A stretch of DNA of 64,000 bases, taken from positions 1-64,000 of the forward strand of contig QEVG01000021.1 in assembly GCA_003576905.1 (NCBI GenBank). The letters run 5' to 3'. Positions 1,477-56,918 of the stretch are shown here, one piece after another; within the stretch, counting starts at the first letter, position 1; each line of letters opens with the position of its first letter. Position numbers and translations under genes: made by a program. The notes under the pieces were generated by a model. That model ran no database searches. It had not been told where the DNA came from and saw nothing but the letters and a program-made list of their open reading frames with translations. Source of the stretch: Planctomycetota bacterium (GTDB lineage Bacteria > Planctomycetota > Phycisphaerae > UBA1845 > UTPLA1).

Positions 1477-4400
1477 GTGCCTGATCCGGCCGATCCCAAG
1501 GTGCATGCCCATCCCTTCAAGCGCGCGCCGCTGGAAGACGACGGCGCGGCCCGCGCCGCCTACACGCCCGCGCCGATTCCCTATGCCGAGCTGACTGTCA
1601 CCAGCAACTTCACCTTTCTGACCGGGGCGAGTCACCCGGACGAGTTGGTATCGCGCGCGGCCGAGCTGGGCTACCGCGCCATCGCCCTGACCGACTGCAA
1701 CTCCCTCGCCGGCATTGTTCGCGGCCACGTCGCCGCGAAGGAGACCGGCATTCCCTTCGTCGTCGGCTGTCGGCTGCGCTTCGTCGAGCCCGCCGGATTG
1801 TCGCTCTTTGTCTATCCGACCGACCGCGCCGCCTACGGCCGGTTGTGCCGGCTGCTGACGCTCGGCAAGCGCCGCGCCCCGAAAGGGGAGTGTCATCTCT
1901 GGCTGGACGACCTGGCCGAACACGCCGAGGGCCTGCTCGCCGTGGCGTGGTTCGCCGCGCCGAAAGAGCCCGAAGTGCCGGAGATCATTGACCGCCTCGC
2001 GGGACTCTTTGATGACGACCGTCTGTCACTCGCGCTCGCCCGGCTCTATACCGCCCATGACTTCGAGTGCATGGGCGTCGTCGCCGATCTGGCCGCGCGG
2101 ACCGGCGTTCCGCTGGTGGTCGCGGGCGACGTGCATTACCACGTCCCGCGGCGCCGGGCGCTGCACGACGTGCTGTCGTGCGTACGGAACGGCTGCACGC
2201 TCGACGAGGCGGGCTTTCGGCTGTTCCCCAACGCCGAGCGCTATCTCAAGCCTCCCGAAGAGCTGGCCCGGCTGTTCGCGGAGTACCCCGCGGCGCTGGC
2301 CCGCACGGTCGAAATCGCCGGCCGCGCGGCCGGCTTCTCGCTCGATCAGCTCCGCTACGAATACCCGCACGAGATCTGCCCGCCGGGCCTGACGCCGATG
2401 GAGCATCTTCGCCGGCTGACGTGGCAGTGCGCCGCGGAGCGCTACCCGCGGGGCGTTCCGGAGAAAGTCCGCGCGCAGATCGAGCACGAATTCGCGCTGA
2501 TCGAGGAGCTGGATTACGCGCCGTACTTCCTGACGGTCCACGACCTGGTCACCTTCGCGCGCGGGCGCGGCATTCTCTGCCAGGGCCGGGGGGCGGCGGC
2601 GAACTCGGCCGTGTGTTTCTGTCTCGGCGTCACCTCGGTCGACCCCGACCGGATCAACGTGCTTTTCGAGCGCTTCGTCAGCCGCGAGCGCGACGAGCCG
2701 CCCGACATCGACATCGACTTCGAGCACGAGCGCCGCGAGGAGGTCATCCAGTACATCTACGAGAAGTACGGCCGCGACCGCGCCGGTCTGACCGCCGAGG
2801 TCATCACCTATCGCAGCCGCAGCGCCGTCCGCGACGTCGGCAAGGCCCTGGGTCTCTCGCTCGACGCCGTCGACCGGATCGCCAAGCGCGTGCACGACTG
2901 GCACGAGGACGGGCTGACCGATGGCAAGCTCGTCGAGCTGGGCCTGTGTCCCGACGATCCGATGCTGCGGCTCTTCGTGCGCCTGGTGGGACAGGTCGTC
3001 GGTTTTCCGCGTCATCTTTCGCAGCACGTCGGCGGCTTCGTCATCTCGCGCGGCCCGCTCTGCGAGCTGGTGCCCATCGAAAACGCGGCGATGGAGAACC
3101 GCACGATCATCGAATGGGACAAGGACGACATCGAGGCGCTGGGGATGCTCAAGGTGGATGTGCTGGCGCTGGGGATGCTGACGTGTATTGCCAAATGTTT
3201 CAAGCTGCTGGAGAGATGGGAGGGAACAGGGAACAGGGAACAGGGAACAGGAAATAAAAGGCGGGCGGTAGCCGAGGCCGGGCGCAATAGTGGGAGCGAA
3301 ACGCGTAGCGGAGGAACACGCGATGGCGAACGAGGAAGATTTTCGCGAACTCATCGTATGGCGGAAGGCGATCGAAATGACCAAGAATGTATATCGGATT
3401 ACGCAAAGACTTCCGGACTCGGAACGGTTCGGCATGATGTCGCAGATGCGCCGGGCGGCGGTCTCGGTTCCGTCCAACATTGCCGAGGGGAATGCGCGGG
3501 AGACCGTGAAGGATTATCTCAAGTTTCTTGTGACCGCGCGAGGTTCCCTGGCCGAAGTGGAAACACAGTTCATCATCGCGACCGAATTGAAAATGTTGGA
3601 CGATACCGCTTTTGTTCTTGCGGCGATCAACGAAGTCAAGCGGATCCTTCAGGGGCTCATCCTGAGTCTGCGCCGCAGAATGAGAGGGAAATGAGATCGC
3701 CATGCACGGCGTCGCCTTGTTCCTGTTCCCTGTTCCCTGTTCCCTGTTCCCTTACGGAAATTCCCCCCGAAGATCCTCGCGTCTACGACATGATCTGCAA
3801 AGCCGACACCCTCGGCGTTTTCCAGATTGAATCACGGGCACAGATGACCATGCTGCCGCGGCTGAAGCCACGGTGTTTTTATGATCTGGTGATCGAAGTG
3901 GCGATTGTCCGGCCCGGCCCCATCGTCGGCGACATGGTGCATCCCTACCTGCGCCGCCGCAACGGGGAAGAGCCCGTCGTCTATCCCGATGAAAAGGTTG
4001 CCCGGGTTCTGGGCCGCACACTCGGCGTCCCGCTCTTTCAGGAACAGGCCATGGCCCTCGCCATCGTCGCCGCCGGTTTCACGCCGGGCGAGGCCGAGCG
4101 GCTCCGCCGCACCATCAGTGCCTGGAAGAGCCGCGGCAAGGACGCCATCCCGCGCTACCGCGACCGCTTTATCACCGGCATGGTGACCAACGGCTACGAG
4201 CGCAAGTTCGCCGAGCAGTGTTTCGAGCGGCTCAAGGGCTTCAGCGAGTACGGCTTTCCCGAGTCCCATTCCGCGAGCTTCGCGCTTCTCGTCTATGCCT
4301 CGGCCTGGCTCAAGTGCTATTACCCCGCCGCCTTTGCCGCCGCGCTGCTCAACAGCCAGCCCATGGGCTTTTACGCCCCGGCGCAGATCGTCCGCGACGC

Positions 4401-5250
4401 CCGCGACCACGGCGTCGTCGTCCTGCCGGTCGACGTCAACCGCAGCGACTGGGACTGCACGCTGGAGAGAGAGGGTTTCAGGGATTCGGGGATTGAGGGA
4501 TTAAGGGAACAACAGCCGTCCCTTCGCCTCGGCATGCGCATGATCAAGGGTCTGCGCGAATCCGATGCCCGCGCGATCGTGGAGGCCGTCCGCCGCCGCG
4601 GCCGTCCTTTCGCGTCGGTGGTCGATCTCTGGCGGGCCAGCGAGGTGTCCGCCGCGGCGCTCTATACCCTCGCCCTCGCCGATGCCTTCGGCTCGATGGG
4701 GCTCGACCGCCAGCAGGCCCTCTGGGCGGTGCAGTCGCTCCGGGGCCGCCCGCTGCCGCTCTTCGACGCCCCCGATCGCGCCGAATCGTCGCCGGATCGC
4801 GCCGAAAGCCTGCCGCCGGTGTCCGCGCCGGTCGAGGTCGTGCGCGACTACCACGCCACCGGCCTCTCGCTGAAGGCCCATCCGCTCTCGTTTCTCCGCG
4901 AGGAGCTGCGCCGCCGCCGCGTCCGGACCGCCGCCGAGATCCGCGATGAAGGGGCCTGTCCGCACGGCCGGTGGGCCGCCGTTGCCGGCATCGTCCTCTT
5001 CCGCCAGCGCCCCGGCACGGCGAAGGGTGTCCTTTTCATGACACTAGAGGACGAAACCGGCCGCGCCGATCTGATCGTCCGCCCGAAGGTGTACCGGCGG
5101 GACGCCGCCGCCGCCCTCTACGGCCGGATCGTCTGCGCCCGAGGCCGCGTGGAGCGCGACGGCCGGGTCGTTCATCTCCTGGCCAGCCGGATCGAGGAGG
5201 TGACGGCCGAGTACCTCGCCCTTCCCGCCGCCTCGCGCGATTTCCACTGA
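1477..5250 (+). CDS. dnaE2: Error-prone DNA polymerase III alpha subunit DnaE2, interrupted by an in-frame element
   Basis: DnaE2 is the C-family polymerase that performs error-prone translesion synthesis with ImuA/ImuB. The 1257-aa frame starts at a GTG after an AGAGAG ribosome-binding-like stretch. Order: PHP domain (PYAELTVTSNFTFLTGASHP, about residue 36), polymerase palm with catalytic aspartates in PDIDIDFE (D410, D412) and LKVDVLALG (D561), then the block starting IPPEDPRVYDM, and a C-terminal HhH/OB region. DnaE2 is normally about 1050-1080 aa; the excess is explained by residues about 582-759, which have no DnaE2 character and come from the 530-bp element at 3222-3751. A second foreign-looking linker is encoded by octamers at 4473-4512. 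The frame stays open throughout, so the gene may be functional with an extra loop. The insertion falls some 20 residues after the third catalytic Asp. Confidence 0.9.
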   Translation: MPDPADPKVHAHPFKRAPLEDDGAARAAYTPAPIPYAELTVTSNFTFLTGASHPDELVSRAAELGYRAIALTDCNSLAGIVRGHVAAKETGIPFVVGCRLRFVEPAGLSLFVYPTDRAAYGRLCRLLTLGKRRAPKGECHLWLDDLAEHAEGLLAVAWFAAPKEPEVPEIIDRLAGLFDDDRLSLALARLYTAHDFECMGVVADLAARTGVPLVVAGDVHYHVPRRRALHDVLSCVRNGCTLDEAGFRLFPNAERYLKPPEELARLFAEYPAALARTVEIAGRAAGFSLDQLRYEYPHEICPPGLTPMEHLRRLTWQCAAERYPRGVPEKVRAQIEHEFALIEELDYAPYFLTVHDLVTFARGRGILCQGRGAAANSAVCFCLGVTSVDPDRINVLFERFVSRERDEPPDIDIDFEHERREEVIQYIYEKYGRDRAGLTAEVITYRSRSAVRDVGKALGLSLDAVDRIAKRVHDWHEDGLTDGKLVELGLCPDDPMLRLFVRLVGQVVGFPRHLSQHVGGFVISRGPLCELVPIENAAMENRTIIEWDKDDIEALGMLKVDVLALGMLTCIAKCFKLLERWEGTGNREQGTGNKRRAVAEAGRNSGSETRSGGTRDGERGRFSRTHRMAEGDRNDQECISDYAKTSGLGTVRHDVADAPGGGLGSVQHCRGECAGDREGLSQVSCDRARFPGRSGNTVHHRDRIENVGRYRFCSCGDQRSQADPSGAHPESAPQNEREMRSPCTASPCSCSLFPVPCSLTEIPPEDPRVYDMICKADTLGVFQIESRAQMTMLPRLKPRCFYDLVIEVAIVRPGPIVGDMVHPYLRRRNGEEPVVYPDEKVARVLGRTLGVPLFQEQAMALAIVAAGFTPGEAERLRRTISAWKSRGKDAIPRYRDRFITGMVTNGYERKFAEQCFERLKGFSEYGFPESHSASFALLVYASAWLKCYYPAAFAAALLNSQPMGFYAPAQIVRDARDHGVVVLPVDVNRSDWDCTLEREGFRDSGIEGLREQQPSLRLGMRMIKGLRESDARAIVEAVRRRGRPFASVVDLWRASEVSAAALYTLALADAFGSMGLDRQQALWAVQSLRGRPLPLFDAPDRAESSPDRAESLPPVSAPVEVVRDYHATGLSLKAHPLSFLREELRRRRVRTAAEIRDEGACPHGRWAAVAGIVLFRQRPGTAKGVLFMTLEDETGRADLIVRPKVYRRDAAAALYGRIVCARGRVERDGRVVHLLASRIEEVTAEYLALPAASRDFH
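3222..3253 (+). repeat. Left terminal inverted repeat of the dnaE2 element (4 x GGGAACA)
   Basis: Exact heptamers at 3222-3228, 3229-3235, 3236-3242 and 3243-3249, then GGAA to 3253. This is the perfect reverse complement of 3720-3751. In the transcript the pair could form a 32-bp stem closing a loop of about 466 nt. Confidence 0.95.
3323..3694 (+). CDS. Four-helix-bundle (S23/IVP-like) protein encoded inside dnaE2
   Basis: A 123-aa protein of the four helix bundle / 23S rRNA intervening-sequence protein family (TIGR02436-type). Family traits: FRELIVWRKAIEMTKNVY at the N-terminus, a SQMRRAAVSVPSNIAEGNAR core (the SIPSNIAEG signature of the family), and a C-terminal helix with amphipathic heptads. 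The length matches the usual 115-125 aa. The ATG at 3323 follows GGAGG at a good distance; a GTG at 3290 in the same frame is less likely. It lies in the +1 frame relative to dnaE2, so the same DNA codes twice. The function of the family is unsettled; relatives include the Avd accessory protein of diversity-generating retroelements, a basic nucleic-acid-binding pentamer. A role in spread or RNA handling of the surrounding element is inference. Confidence 0.85.
   Translation: MANEEDFRELIVWRKAIEMTKNVYRITQRLPDSERFGMMSQMRRAAVSVPSNIAEGNARETVKDYLKFLVTARGSLAEVETQFIIATELKMLDDTAFVLAAINEVKRILQGLILSLRRRMRGK
3720..3751 (-). repeat. Right terminal inverted repeat of the dnaE2 element (4 x TGTTCCC)
   Basis: TTCC followed by four exact TGTTCCC heptamers at 3724-3730, 3731-3737, 3738-3744 and 3745-3751. 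Perfect inverse of the left end. The dnaE2 homology resumes about three codons downstream at EIPPEDP. Confidence 0.95.
4473..4512 (+). repeat. In-frame GGG-octamer repeat inside dnaE2
   Basis: Five consecutive 8-bp units, each starting with GGG (consensus GGGATTNN; second unit GGGATTCG, fourth GGGATTAA). They encode a polar linker (around residue 1000 of DnaE2) that interrupts the region between DVNRSDWDCTLE and RLGMRMIKGL. Forty bases is not a multiple of three, yet the frame is open; flanking bases must compensate. Confidence 0.7.
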
Positions 5251-53201: not shown

Positions 53202-53315
53202 CGTCTGTCTGCATGGGGGGTTTGGCACGGGCCAGAGGCAGCGGACGCCGGTCCGACGCGCGACGACCCATCGCGCGAGACCCCGAACTGAATCCTCGCC
53301 GTGAGGGATGAAGCC

Positions 53316-54779
53316 ATGCGCAGACTTTTCGCCAGTCCGCTGTTCGTTCTCCTGTGCCTCTCGGTCCTGCTGTCCACCGGCTGCACCGAGTTCTACGTCC
53401 TCTTCGGCCCCGGCGGAATCTGGGGCCCCGGCGGCGGCGGCGCCACCGGCTCGCTCACGTCTTCCGGCACGACGACCCAGCCCGCCTCAATCGCCGGCCC
53501 GCTCTTTTCCGTCCGGCAGATCGATCCGATTCTCGAATCCACCGCCGGCGCCCGCGTCATCGTCGCGGCCGATTTCAACTTCGACGGACTCACCGATTTC
53601 GTCTCCGGCTCCGCCGAGAGTCAGCCGGTCCAGATTCACCTCCGCATCCCGGGAACCCAGGACTACAACACCTTTTCCATTGCCGGCGAGGTGCCCATCT
53701 CCATCATGTACGACGTGCAGGTTGCCGACTTCGACCAGGACGGCCGGCTCGACGTGGCCGTCCTCGTGAACAATACGGGCATCATTCCCGTCGCCGGCGC
53801 GAACAAGCGCGGCGCGGTTGTTCTCCTCTTCGCCCCGCCCGACCCCGCCGACGCCGTCTCCTGGACCCAGGTGCTGATCAACGCCACCTTCGTCCTGCCC
53901 AACGACGATACCGGCATGACCGACTTCGCCGTGGGCGATATTGACGGCGCCAACGGCCCCGACGTCGTCCTCGGCTCCAACGAGGTCGCCGCCGGCGGCA
54001 ACACAGCCACTAAGCGCATCTACCTGTTTCAGAATCCCGGCCCGGCCAATGCCCGTAACGGCGCGGCCTGGGTGGGCCCCGATTTCGCCGCCACGTTCCC
54101 GATCATCTCCGAGGCCCCGCCCTTCAAGCAGCTTGAGCTTGCCGACCTCGACGGCGACGGTGACCTCGACGTGGTCGGGACTTTCCCCACGGCCCTCTCC
54201 AGCAACATCCGCTGGATGGTCAACCCCCTCGTCCCCTCCGGTGCCGGTGCCGTGGCAGCCGGAAACTGGGTCGACAACATCATCGGCGAACAACGCCAGC
54301 TTACCCAGCCCGGCGACGAGCAGGTGCCGGGGGCCGACTTCATCGCCGTCGGCGACATCGACGGCGACGGCGACATCGACGTCGCCAGCGGCTTCGAGCA
54401 GCTGCGCCTCTTCCAGTGGTTTGAGAACCCCGGCCCGGCCCTCGTCGCCCTCCAGGGATTCCCGTGGAAGGTCTACAACATCGGCCAGCTCAACGAGGGC
54501 GTCACCATGAACCAGTTGCAGCTGGTGGACCTCGACCTCGACGGCCGGTTGGATGCCTTCGTCACTGCGAGCGGCAACATGGTCGCCTTCGAGCCGCGCA
54601 CCAATGTGCAGGATTACTGGCAGCCGATCTCCATCACCAGCACGAACCCCATCGCCACCATCGGCCGCTGCGCCTTCGTCGACGAAAACGGCGACGGCCT
54701 GCTTGACATCATCGCCCCGATGGACCGCGACGGCGTGACCCTCGACCAGTTCCTGATCCTGACGCGCCTGACCCCGTAG
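53316..54779 (+). CDS. FG-GAP/VCBS-repeat lipoprotein
   Basis: 487 aa. The signal ends in LLSTGC, a good lipobox, so the protein is lipid-anchored. A Gly/Ser/Thr-rich linker leads to FG-GAP repeats of a beta-propeller: VAADFNFDGLTDFV, VADFDQDGRLDVAV, VGDIDGANGPDVVL, LADLDGDGDLDVVG, VGDIDGDGDIDVAS, LVDLDLDGRLDAFV and FVDENGDGLLDIIA. Seven such loops fit one complete propeller. Calcium-binding DxDxDG loops sit at each blade. Start ATG 53316 after GAGGG; GTG 53301 is the alternative. Function: probably extracellular binding. Confidence 0.85.
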   Translation: MRRLFASPLFVLLCLSVLLSTGCTEFYVLFGPGGIWGPGGGGATGSLTSSGTTTQPASIAGPLFSVRQIDPILESTAGARVIVAADFNFDGLTDFVSGSAESQPVQIHLRIPGTQDYNTFSIAGEVPISIMYDVQVADFDQDGRLDVAVLVNNTGIIPVAGANKRGAVVLLFAPPDPADAVSWTQVLINATFVLPNDDTGMTDFAVGDIDGANGPDVVLGSNEVAAGGNTATKRIYLFQNPGPANARNGAAWVGPDFAATFPIISEAPPFKQLELADLDGDGDLDVVGTFPTALSSNIRWMVNPLVPSGAGAVAAGNWVDNIIGEQRQLTQPGDEQVPGADFIAVGDIDGDGDIDVASGFEQLRLFQWFENPGPALVALQGFPWKVYNIGQLNEGVTMNQLQLVDLDLDGRLDAFVTASGNMVAFEPRTNVQDYWQPISITSTNPIATIGRCAFVDENGDGLLDIIAPMDRDGVTLDQFLILTRLTP

Positions 54780-55057
54780 GGCGGTTTCCGCGCGGTCGCG
54801 GCGCTGCCATTGCCCTGCGAAGGAGGGCCTCTCGCGCACTCGATCCGCCTTCCCGCGGAAGCACGACGACCGATCGAAAAACGGCCCGGACCGACTCTCG
54901 CGCGGCGCCGGAGTCCGGCTTCATGCCCGCCGACGATGCGCGATTCAGGCGTCGCCGTCACCCGCCCCGAAGTGACGCCGCGATGACACTTAGGAAGCTC
55001 TCGCGAATTGGGAACGGCCTACGTGGATTCGGCCGCCAGACCGCCCGAACTCGTTTC

Positions 55058-55092
55058 TATTCCCTGTTTCCCGTTCCCCGTTCCCCGCTCCC
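55058..55092 (-). repeat. Heptamer array downstream of lpdA
   Basis: Five 7-bp units of the form NRYTYCC/NGTTCCC (third and fourth CGTTCCC, exact). The consensus matches the TGTTCCC ends of the dnaE2 element. A solo GGGAACG lies 42 bp further left at 55010-55016 in the opposite orientation. The array ends 10 bp from the lpdA stop. The rest of the 323-bp gap (54780-55102) shows no gene. Confidence 0.6.
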
Positions 55093-55102
55093 TTGCCTTC
55101 AT

Positions 55103-56515
55103 TCAATGCCCCGCGTGCACCGCGTGACCAAACATCGCCTCCGCCGCCTCCGCGAGCGTCTCGCTCGTGGCCGGGTGCGGGTGGATCGCCACGCCGATGT
55201 CCTCCGCGACCGCCGCCATCTCCATCGCCAGTACGCCCTCGGCGATCAGGTCGCCCGCGTGCGCCCCGACGATCCCCACGCCGAGCAGCCGCTGCGTCTT
55301 CTTGTCGAAGATCATCTTCGTCAGTCCGTCCGTCCGACTCATTGACACCGCACGGCCGCTGCCCGCCCAGGGAAACTTGGTCACTTTCACGTCCAGTCCC
55401 TTGGCCGTCGCCTCGGACTCCGTCACGCCGCACCACGCCACCTCCGGATCGGTATAGACCACCGCCGGAATGCACGCCGGATCGAAGACGCTCGGCTTTC
55501 CGGCGATCGCCTCCACCGCCACCTTCGCCTCGCGCATCGCCTTGTGCGCCAGCATCGGCTCGCCCGCCACGTCCCCGATGGCGTAGATCCGCTTGTCCGT
55601 CGTCCGCCGCTGCGCGTCCACCTCGATGAACCCGCGGTCGTTCACCTTCACCTGCGTGTTATTAAGGCCGATCGTGTCGCTGTTCGGCCTCCGGCCCACC
55701 GACACCAGCACCCGGTCGAACTCGACCGTCTCGTCCTTGCCGTCCACGCTGTAGCTGATTGCCACGCCCGAGCCGCTCTTCTTCGCCCCCTTTAGCGTCG
55801 CCCCGGTGATGATCGCCTTCATCTGTTTCTTCAGCTTCGCGATCAGCGGCCGCGCCAGGTCCGGGTCCGCCCCGGCGAGGATGTTCGGCAGCGCCTCCAG
55901 CACCGTCACTTCGCTTCCCAGCGTCGCGTACACCTGCCCCAGCTCCAGGCCGATGTACCCGCCGCCGATCACCAGCAGCTTCCGCGGAATCTCCTGAATC
56001 TTTAGCGCGTCTGCCGCGTCCCAGATCAGCTCCCGTGGAAGCAGCGCCTCCGGGAGCATCTTGGCCCGCGACCCGCTCGCGATGATGCAGTGCTTGAACT
56101 TGATCCGCGCTACATCCGCCCCCTCGATCCGCACCGTCCGCGAGTCCTCGAACTCCGCCTCGCCCGTGATGTAGTCCACCTTCCGCCCGGCCAGGAGCTG
56201 CTTTACCCCGCCCGACAGTTTCCGAATCACCCCGTTCTTCCAGTCGCGCAGCTTGTTCACGTCGGTCGTCGGCTTCCCGAACGATACCCCGAAGTCCGCC
56301 GCGTGTGCCGCCTCGTCGATGATTTTCGCCACGTGCAGCAGCGCCTTGCTCGGAATGCACCCCTCGCGCAGACACACCCCGCCCGGAACCTCCGCCTTTT
56401 CCACCAGTGCCGTCTGGATCCCGTGATCCGCCGCCACCAGCGCCGCCACGTATCCCCCCGGCCCGCCGCCGATCACCAGTAAGTCCACTTCCTGCGTCAG
56501 TTCCCCGACAACCAT
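55103..56515 (-). CDS. lpdA: Dihydrolipoamide dehydrogenase
   Basis: 470 aa from ATG 56515, with AAGGAG 6 bp upstream. FAD-binding VIGGGPGGYVAALVAADHG, redox disulfide in GGVCLREGCIPSK (C48, C53), NAD-binding LVIGGGYIGLELGQVYATLG, second FAD motif IYAIGDVAGEPMLAHKA, and the active-site IHPHPATSE with His. It reoxidises lipoyl groups in 2-oxoacid dehydrogenase or glycine cleavage complexes. No E1/E2 gene is adjacent, so it stands alone. The upstream open frame to 56782 is not coding. Confidence 0.95.
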   Translation of the reverse strand: MVVGELTQEVDLLVIGGGPGGYVAALVAADHGIQTALVEKAEVPGGVCLREGCIPSKALLHVAKIIDEAAHAADFGVSFGKPTTDVNKLRDWKNGVIRKLSGGVKQLLAGRKVDYITGEAEFEDSRTVRIEGADVARIKFKHCIIASGSRAKMLPEALLPRELIWDAADALKIQEIPRKLLVIGGGYIGLELGQVYATLGSEVTVLEALPNILAGADPDLARPLIAKLKKQMKAIITGATLKGAKKSGSGVAISYSVDGKDETVEFDRVLVSVGRRPNSDTIGLNNTQVKVNDRGFIEVDAQRRTTDKRIYAIGDVAGEPMLAHKAMREAKVAVEAIAGKPSVFDPACIPAVVYTDPEVAWCGVTESEATAKGLDVKVTKFPWAGSGRAVSMSRTDGLTKMIFDKKTQRLLGVGIVGAHAGDLIAEGVLAMEMAAVAEDIGVAIHPHPATSETLAEAAEAMFGHAVHAGH

Positions 56516-56918
56516 GGCTGCTCCTTCGACTTTCTGTCCCGTTCGCCCCCGCGCTTCCCAGTGTCTCCCGCGCCCACGCATGTCGCCTGCCCCGGCTCCA
56601 CCCACGCCGCCGCGCGCCGGGGGGGATTCTATAGACACCCCCCGGACCGGGAAAGCCGCCCGCCCGCAGGGGCAGGGGCCTGCCTCAGCCGCCGCGCTTC
56701 GCTCCGCGCAGAGCCCTGCGTCAACCCCGCCGCGGACTTTTTTGACAAGCTGGGATCGCTCTTTCGCGCGTGCGCTGAGCAAGGATGGGGGTCAGAGAAC
56801 CGCGAAGGCGGCCGTGTTCTCTTGTCCTCCGCCGCCGGGAGGCTGCGTTTCGGGAGAATTCAGTCGGATTCCGGCGGATTTGTGTTTTATTTATTTTTTT
56901 TTGCGAAAGGGCGTGCCC
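56516..56918. other. Divergent upstream region with an AT-rich tract
   Basis: About 400 bp between lpdA and the unknown coiled-coil gene. The plus-strand frame is open but low complexity. At 56883-56902 a T-rich run (TTTATTTATTTTTTTTT) sits just before the next gene's AAAGGG ribosome site, standing out from the GC-rich surroundings. Promoter boxes could not be fixed. Confidence 0.4.

Follow-up and report, generated by a model that had tools for sequence, protein, structure and literature searches.

The heptamer array downstream of lpdA

We analysed a window of 64,000 nt (the whole stretch of DNA, positions 1–64,000 of the forward strand of contig QEVG01000021.1) from the Planctomycetota bacterium assembly GCA_003576905.1 (Phycisphaerae; UBA1845; UTPLA1), whose genome comprises 4.71 Mb in 65 contigs. 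A tandem heptamer array lies in the intergenic region between lpdA and a convergent gene:

53301–54779, plus strand: gene for an FG-GAP repeat protein, convergent with lpdA
54992–55009, plus strand: AGGAAGC...CGCGAAT, possible decayed outer units of a left arm (from the RNA fold, otherwise by eye)
55010–55017, plus strand: GGGAACGG, inverse of the array unit, proposed as the inner portion of a left arm (sequence and partner score)
55058–55092, plus strand: five-unit heptamer array (sequence and TRF), GTTCCC-type on this strand and G-rich on the sense strand of lpdA; putative right arm of a decayed miniature
55103–56521, minus strand: lpdA (dihydrolipoamide dehydrogenase; Pfam Pyr_redox_2 and Pyr_redox_dim), start approximate

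The preliminary description had reported five NGTTCCC units beside lpdA and a solo inverse unit at 55010, and both are present. The units read TATTCCC, TGTTTCC, CGTTCCC, CGTTCCC and CGCTCCC on the plus strand, two of them exact and three with one mismatch; TRF reports a period-7 row at 55060–55092. The lpdA stop codon (55103–55105, minus strand) is separated from the array by 10 bp, and the inverse unit, GGGAACG, occupies 55010–55016. Allowing up to three mismatches, GTTCCCNGTTCCCNGTTCCC matched nine times in the window, three of these within the array; 100 shuffles that preserved dinucleotides gave 0.15 matches on average.

The array could be a plain simple-sequence repeat, a G-rich heptamer grown by slippage and kept or tolerated near stop codons through G-quadruplex formation, with no tie to a mobile element. 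Its sequence fits the G3+N1-7 quadruplex pattern, with at least four G-tracts spaced roughly a heptamer apart on the sense strand of lpdA, and it lies less than 50 bp past the stop, like the GGGAATC repeats described in Xanthomonas (PMC4692102). The evidence that weighs against this explanation is given below.

We then asked what faces the array. The best array partner on the element-correct side scored 9, compared with 5 on the other side, and consists of 8 bp of exact match plus degenerate units, facing five units on the array side; read on the lpdA strand, the order is array, then CCGTTCCC, then degenerate units. The chance of such a partner is roughly 4% over the few windows within reach, and since 22 of 2000 random 40-bp windows equalled or exceeded its score, the case for an inverted partner at this locus by itself is moderate. 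The RNA fold of 54985–55105 (minus strand, 121 nt) reached -44.6 kcal/mol (z -2.8; two of 200 shuffles as good) and pairs the array with its partner, with 54992–55009 taking part. The opposite strand gave z -1.5, and a 66-nt stretch with the array and without the partner folded no better than its shuffles (z 0.39).

A stable sense-strand fold between convergent genes would also suit a structure at transcript 3' ends, serving lpdA and the FG-GAP gene as a hairpin or quadruplex terminator or as an RNase barrier. Elsewhere in the genome, two arrays (L001, L006) are directly preceded, by eye, by a hairpin-like palindrome with a T-run. Against this, the array stretch without its partner has no unusual fold, no intrinsic-terminator-like site (GC stem plus T-run) occurs within 54700–55300, and Rfam matches in the same interval are all sub-threshold, with none near a gathering score; the promoter and terminator scan of this interval returned nothing. 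The array is also missing after lpdA in the two same-genus genomes. We therefore consider a 3'-end structure quite improbable as an account of the array.

lpdA matches at E up to 1e-60 were found in 59 of 61 genomes (the window's own and 60 relatives), and 27 of 30 lpdA loci, the own locus included, were compared in search of an empty allele. A period-7 array with a score of at least 10 follows lpdA at two of these 27 loci only, in G000 and G019, while G011 and G029 carry weak period-5 or period-6 repeats. The DNA downstream of lpdA could not be aligned by eye with the same-genus genomes or with other lpdA orthologs, and because of the former no target-site duplication is visible at lpdA.

The dnaE2 element and GTTCCC arrays in the window's genome

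The same heptamer core occurs at both ends of a small element inside dnaE2, at the other end of the window:

1477–5250: dnaE2, with an IVP element at 3221–3752 inside it
3221–3251, plus strand: left array of the element, AGGGAAC x 4.4 (tandem repeat scan)
3290–3694, plus strand: IVP/S23 four-helix-bundle ORF of the element, with an in-frame ATG at 3323 (PF05635, E 5.1e-34)
3718–3752, plus strand: right array of the element, TGTTCCC x 5.1 (tandem repeat scan)

This element has a PF05635 gene with matched inverted 7–8-bp arrays on both sides, as is characteristic of the family described below. The heptamers at dnaE2 and lpdA had been called the same; their core agrees, but the dnaE2 ends are mostly perfect TGTTCCC, whereas the lpdA units mostly carry C for T or are otherwise altered. 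The sole PDB match of the dnaE2-element protein at E up to 0.001 was 2gsc (XCC0516, E 3.8e-25). Pfam found no transposase domain in the ORF, a match to bAvd was weak and below the cut-off, and phage records gave no match at E 1e-5.

The element sits in frame within dnaE2, leaving the host frame open across it. The same dnaE2 linker carries an IVP element in eight of 28 orthologs read, with no host-frame stop over the stretch read; in G029 dnaE2 the element is present by coordinates. In a tree of 70 IVP proteins, the dnaE2-resident ones cluster (two changes, compared with a shuffled mean of 9.6; bootstrap unsettled), and one origin for them is possible. Their array units vary, including 7-mers and 8-mers. 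Because these proteins cluster and yet the units differ, the two ends seem to change in step, with the element keeping its place in dnaE2. Separately, a gene-less octamer array (GGGATTC-like) at 4472–4508 of the window falls within the coding sequence of dnaE2, lengthening the product by a short peptide; by eye, G010 dnaE2 has a similar insert at the same place.

The proposal that the heptamer would be enriched genome-wide was borne out. With up to two mismatches, GTTCCCNGTTCCCNGTTCCC matched 36 times in the window's genome, at 18 places by our grouping, and the reversed pattern gave no match there. The companion proposal, that such arrays flank four-helix-bundle ORFs, fared differently: it is strongly supported in other genomes, but in the window's genome just one array locus out of 17 lies beside a gene of this kind, counting the two dnaE2 ends as one locus. 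PF05635 has two matches in this genome, one being the dnaE2 element and the other lying on a different contig without the GTTCCC heptamer; neither is at the lpdA array, which has no IVP/S23 gene. An inverted partner is present on the element-correct side for three of the 11 arrays scored, lpdA included, and on the wrong side for none. The remaining eight have no clear partner arm, as the simple-repeat explanation would have it. Judged from this genome alone, the link between arrays and IVP genes would look weak.

Ten other GTTCCC arrays are located within or next to a longer, modular repeat dispersed through intergenic DNA of the genome, and the lpdA array lies outside any such repeat. Blocks of about 100–390 bp are common to L001, L006, L009, L013, L018, L021, L024, L026, L008 and L028; at L001 and L006 the palindrome directly before the array, accompanied by the T-run, is GGTCCCGAAGGGACC.

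Inverted arrays around IVP genes, their insertion and their remnants

PF05635 gave 167 matches in 47 of the 61 genomes, and we analysed the flanks of 73 of these 167 genes, mostly the better-scoring ones. Arrays were called at period 5–10 with a score of at least 12 within 250 bp, with windows 700–1250 bp away as controls. In these genomes, an array was present upstream at 44 of 72 loci, downstream at 51 of 72 and on both sides at 34 of 71, compared with 6.2% of 275 control windows, and all but two of the arrays had period 7 or 8. The two ends of a locus match each other in inverted orientation: for the 40 loci where the arrays of both sides scored 10 or more, the mean inverted match was 24.2 to the locus's own other end and 5.9 to ends of other loci, the own partner ranked first in 31, and 38 had the same period at both ends. 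The units themselves vary among elements (AGGGAAC, AGCGGTC, ACTAGAA, AGGGATCG, AGGCACGA and others). A full element spans about 400–660 bp: units of 7 or 8 bp form an array on the left, a single PF05635 four-helix-bundle gene follows, and the units return in inverted orientation on the right. On the upstream side the purine content averages 0.68 (45 arrays) and on the downstream side 0.36 (51 arrays), so that the purine-rich strand reads inward.

The arrangement extends well beyond these genomes. Among the best 80 of 586 loci in named genomes, covering many phyla and an archaeal group, 30 of 76 were flanked by arrays at both ends, against 4.8% of 419 control windows. Own ends scored 28.4 compared with 5.9 for others in 38 loci, and the own end ranked first in 30 of them. 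In a Luteimonas-centred family, PF05635 matched in 29 of 60 genomes, and 14 of 29 loci (from 39 listed matches) had arrays on both sides, compared with none of 112 control windows; the unit form G[GT]GA[AT]TC occurred at 15 of the 29. About half of the IVP loci fall below the threshold for arrays on both sides. On plasmids, 12 loci from 25 matching records, counted without control windows, all had an array scoring 10 or more on one side or the other, and seven had arrays on both; five of these seven match inverted (two of the five being near-copies), and two (L275, L279) run in the same direction. In two cyanobacterial plasmids (L272, L279), array-flanked IVP genes lie between cas6 and cas4, L279 having two long arrays in one direction. 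IVP genes have been seen in cas loci before (PMC3936711), and elements such as these may explain some of those counted there. They have also been described in rRNA inserts (PMC11270868), and four-helix-bundle genes among strain-unique genes (PMC8700078).

Unit similarity also tends to follow protein identity. Across 112 IVPs, the two correlated weakly but beyond chance (Mantel rho 0.086; none of 500 permutations as high). The mean unit score was 4.4–5.6 at 20–60% identity, 10.6 at 60–70% (56 pairs) and 16 above 70% (eight pairs); three pairs under 20% identity scored 7.3. The Mantel test does not separate descent from recognition, and shared descent alone could explain this correlation. These data bear on the simple-repeat explanation, to which it is foreign that units differ between genomes, that related IVPs have similar units and that inverted partners occur almost only on one side. 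The quadruplex pattern is present at just 26 of 96 and 13 of 85 IVP-gene arrays and is therefore not a common property of them; quadruplex formation as a common principle was rejected on this ground. We consider it unlikely that the lpdA array is a simple repeat of this kind, although it ranks ahead of the other alternatives weighed here.

Plasmids provided an insertion at base resolution. Among conjugative cyanobacterial plasmids assigned to rep_cluster_1671, those of Trichormus variabilis (L278) and Scytonema (L300) carry the element, and those of Aulosira laxa, Nostoc linckia and Microchaete, with flanks about 97% identical, lack it. The filled plasmids are longer than the empty ones by 428 and 414 bp. 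The breakpoint can be shifted across five bases, GTAAT, so that a 5-bp direct repeat borders the insert. This repeat suggests that the filled lineage gained the element, as opposed to the others having cleanly lost it. The same site carries an array and a truncated IVP gene (40 residues, 72.5% identity, E 2.7e-16) in a Nostoc plasmid (C052), and in Brasilonema a gene-less hairpin of a similar unit (L298 and L299, truncated IVP and gene-less miniature). We read the history of the site as insertion followed by deletion to remnants. It is the only insertion resolved to the base and probably a single event. At a second Nostoc plasmid site a TTCTA boundary was drawn by eye, where the script gave no resolution; filled and empty sites in Calothrix (L276) and Nostoc edaphicum (L271) had no clear boundary, and comparisons of G003 with G014 and of G059 with G041 showed presence and absence of the element with no clean boundary.

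The plasmid site also speaks to the suggestion in the preliminary description that the lpdA array is an empty target, tandem arrays being pre-existing landing sites for IVP elements. Such a reading would accommodate the 18 array places against one full element in the window's genome, and the many matches in G035 and Luteimonas. However, the three empty plasmids (of six such records listed) have no array with a score of at least 10 within 150 bp of the site, which indicates that arrays arrive with the element. We regard the empty-target reading as very improbable.

Gene-less arrays are found in several genomes whose IVP genes use the same unit. The Luteimonas salinisoli IVP gene (L237) has inverted GGGAATC arrays, and three tandem GGGAATC units (up to one mismatch) gave 149 overlapping matches in this genome, 16 in Pseudoxanthomonas and none in ten other named genomes. 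Scanning for an inverted partner within 150 bp, where both arms of one pair can count, we found one on the element-correct side for 26 of 34 Luteimonas arrays (20 places) and on the wrong side for two; in G035 the figures were 10 and none of 26 arrays (19 places). G035 has 491 GTTCCC pattern matches and just two IVP genes, both of which have octamer ends. The three genomes in which a GTTCCC-unit IVP gene was seen (G000, G028, G032) all have further copies of the unit, as do the four in which one with an AGCNNTC unit was seen (G004, G032, G036, G059; by eye). Against this, the reversed control of the AGCTNTC pattern itself gave 29 matches in G004 and 163 in G012. The unit of the G003 IVP gene has no other copies in its genome. 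Of the 61 genomes, 18 have GTTCCC arrays, the two same-genus genomes being without them, and 18 have AGCTNTC arrays. The idea that these two units are nearly disjoint across genomes was rejected: seven genomes carry both, about as independence gives, which is no evidence by itself.

A further gene-less pair follows lpdA itself in G019 (L155), where the arms of a complete inverted array hairpin of unit GGGCGCA enclose about 20 bp of loop, in which no ORF was seen. The same unit flanks an IVP gene in the G019 genome, and the hairpin looks like an event independent of the array in the window. A non-coding relative or scar, as also suggested in the preliminary description, is the best fit for the lpdA array: gene-less pairs are frequent in Luteimonas, occur in G035 and in one case occupy a site of the full element, and the lpdA array itself faces a weak partner arm. 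We conclude that the array is probably a non-coding, partly decayed relative, either a miniature or a worn end, of the small mobile element family that has a full copy in dnaE2.

Relation to known elements and heptamer repeats

Gene-less inverted repeats that are scattered by a gene with the same ends elsewhere are familiar from MITEs and from REP/RAYT systems, the latter pairing REP palindromes with a Y1 HUH transposase (RAYT). The lpdA array resembles a MITE in being gene-less and in having a heptamer core in common with the dnaE2 element, its inverted partner being weak. Unlike MITEs and REP/RAYT, the IVP ORF in dnaE2 has no transposase domain in Pfam, and the tandem arrays that form the ends differ in their unit among elements.

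The IVP family is known from the 23S rRNA intervening sequence (IVS) of Coxiella burnetii (S23p/IVP), described as a 428-nt selfish element with terminal inverted repeats and GACAGAT tandem heptamers before the ORF (PMC4990558). The elements here have the IVP protein family in common with it. The Coxiella IVS lies inside precursor 23S rRNA and is excised by RNase III (PMC4990558), whereas those analysed here are intergenic or in frame in dnaE2, are frequently flanked by matched arrays at both ends, and in one case show a 5-bp direct repeat. The array at lpdA is without an ORF and lies between the FG-GAP gene and lpdA, not in an rRNA gene.

Heptamer arrays have been described independently of such genes. 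The GGGAATC and GGGGA(C/T)T quadruplex heptamers of Xanthomonas and Nostoc, whose functional role their authors left open, are G-rich, often of four units, over-represented in non-coding DNA and near sense-strand stops, as is the case here (PMC4692102), and the GGGAATC of that paper is the unit that flanks the Luteimonas salinisoli IVP gene. In marine Beggiatoaceae, TAACTGA arrays lie mostly upstream of start codons in the studied genome and were proposed to form a regulatory network (PMC4679880), with counts given in PMC4853749. They likewise are dispersed intergenic heptamer arrays, unknown in origin and patchy over distant lineages (PMC4679880); that text contains neither 'four helix' nor 'S23'.

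Mechanistically, the IVP protein, whose solved relative XCC0516 (2gsc) is a pentamer of four-helix bundles (PMC4990558), would read the tandem units and bring the two ends together. Cutting and copying would then fall to a nuclease or polymerase from the host or from another element. A borrowed reverse transcriptase is thinkable as the mobilising enzyme because of the homology of IVP to Avd: BPP-1 Avd, of the diversity-generating retroelements, was compared with 2GSC as homologous (PMC10053308), and the IVP in the window has its sub-cut-off likeness to bAvd. Loss of the gene would leave a miniature hairpin, and slippage and mutation would then wear the arms down to a remnant like that at lpdA.

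IVP-bearing IVS elements and heptamer arrays were each known already. Among the open-access papers listed in our searches, none connects IVP genes with flanking inverted arrays, and none describes the two combined, as IVP elements that are mobile outside rRNA, carry matched inverted arrays and leave gene-less arrays behind. It may well be, and to us the evidence is about evenly balanced here, that IVP/S23, a four-helix-bundle gene to which no function has so far been assigned, is the sole gene of pan-prokaryotic minimal elements without a recognised transposase, whose inverted 7- or 8-bp arrays change together and follow the protein, that the orphan arrays of Xanthomonas and Nostoc, and perhaps those of Beggiatoaceae, are their gene-less offspring, and that the lpdA array is one worn copy. 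If this is true, the role of the common IVP/S23 genes and the origin of bacterial intergenic heptamer arrays would become one testable story, and a non-catalytic-looking pentamer acting with changeable short-word ends would be a new way of marking DNA for mobility.
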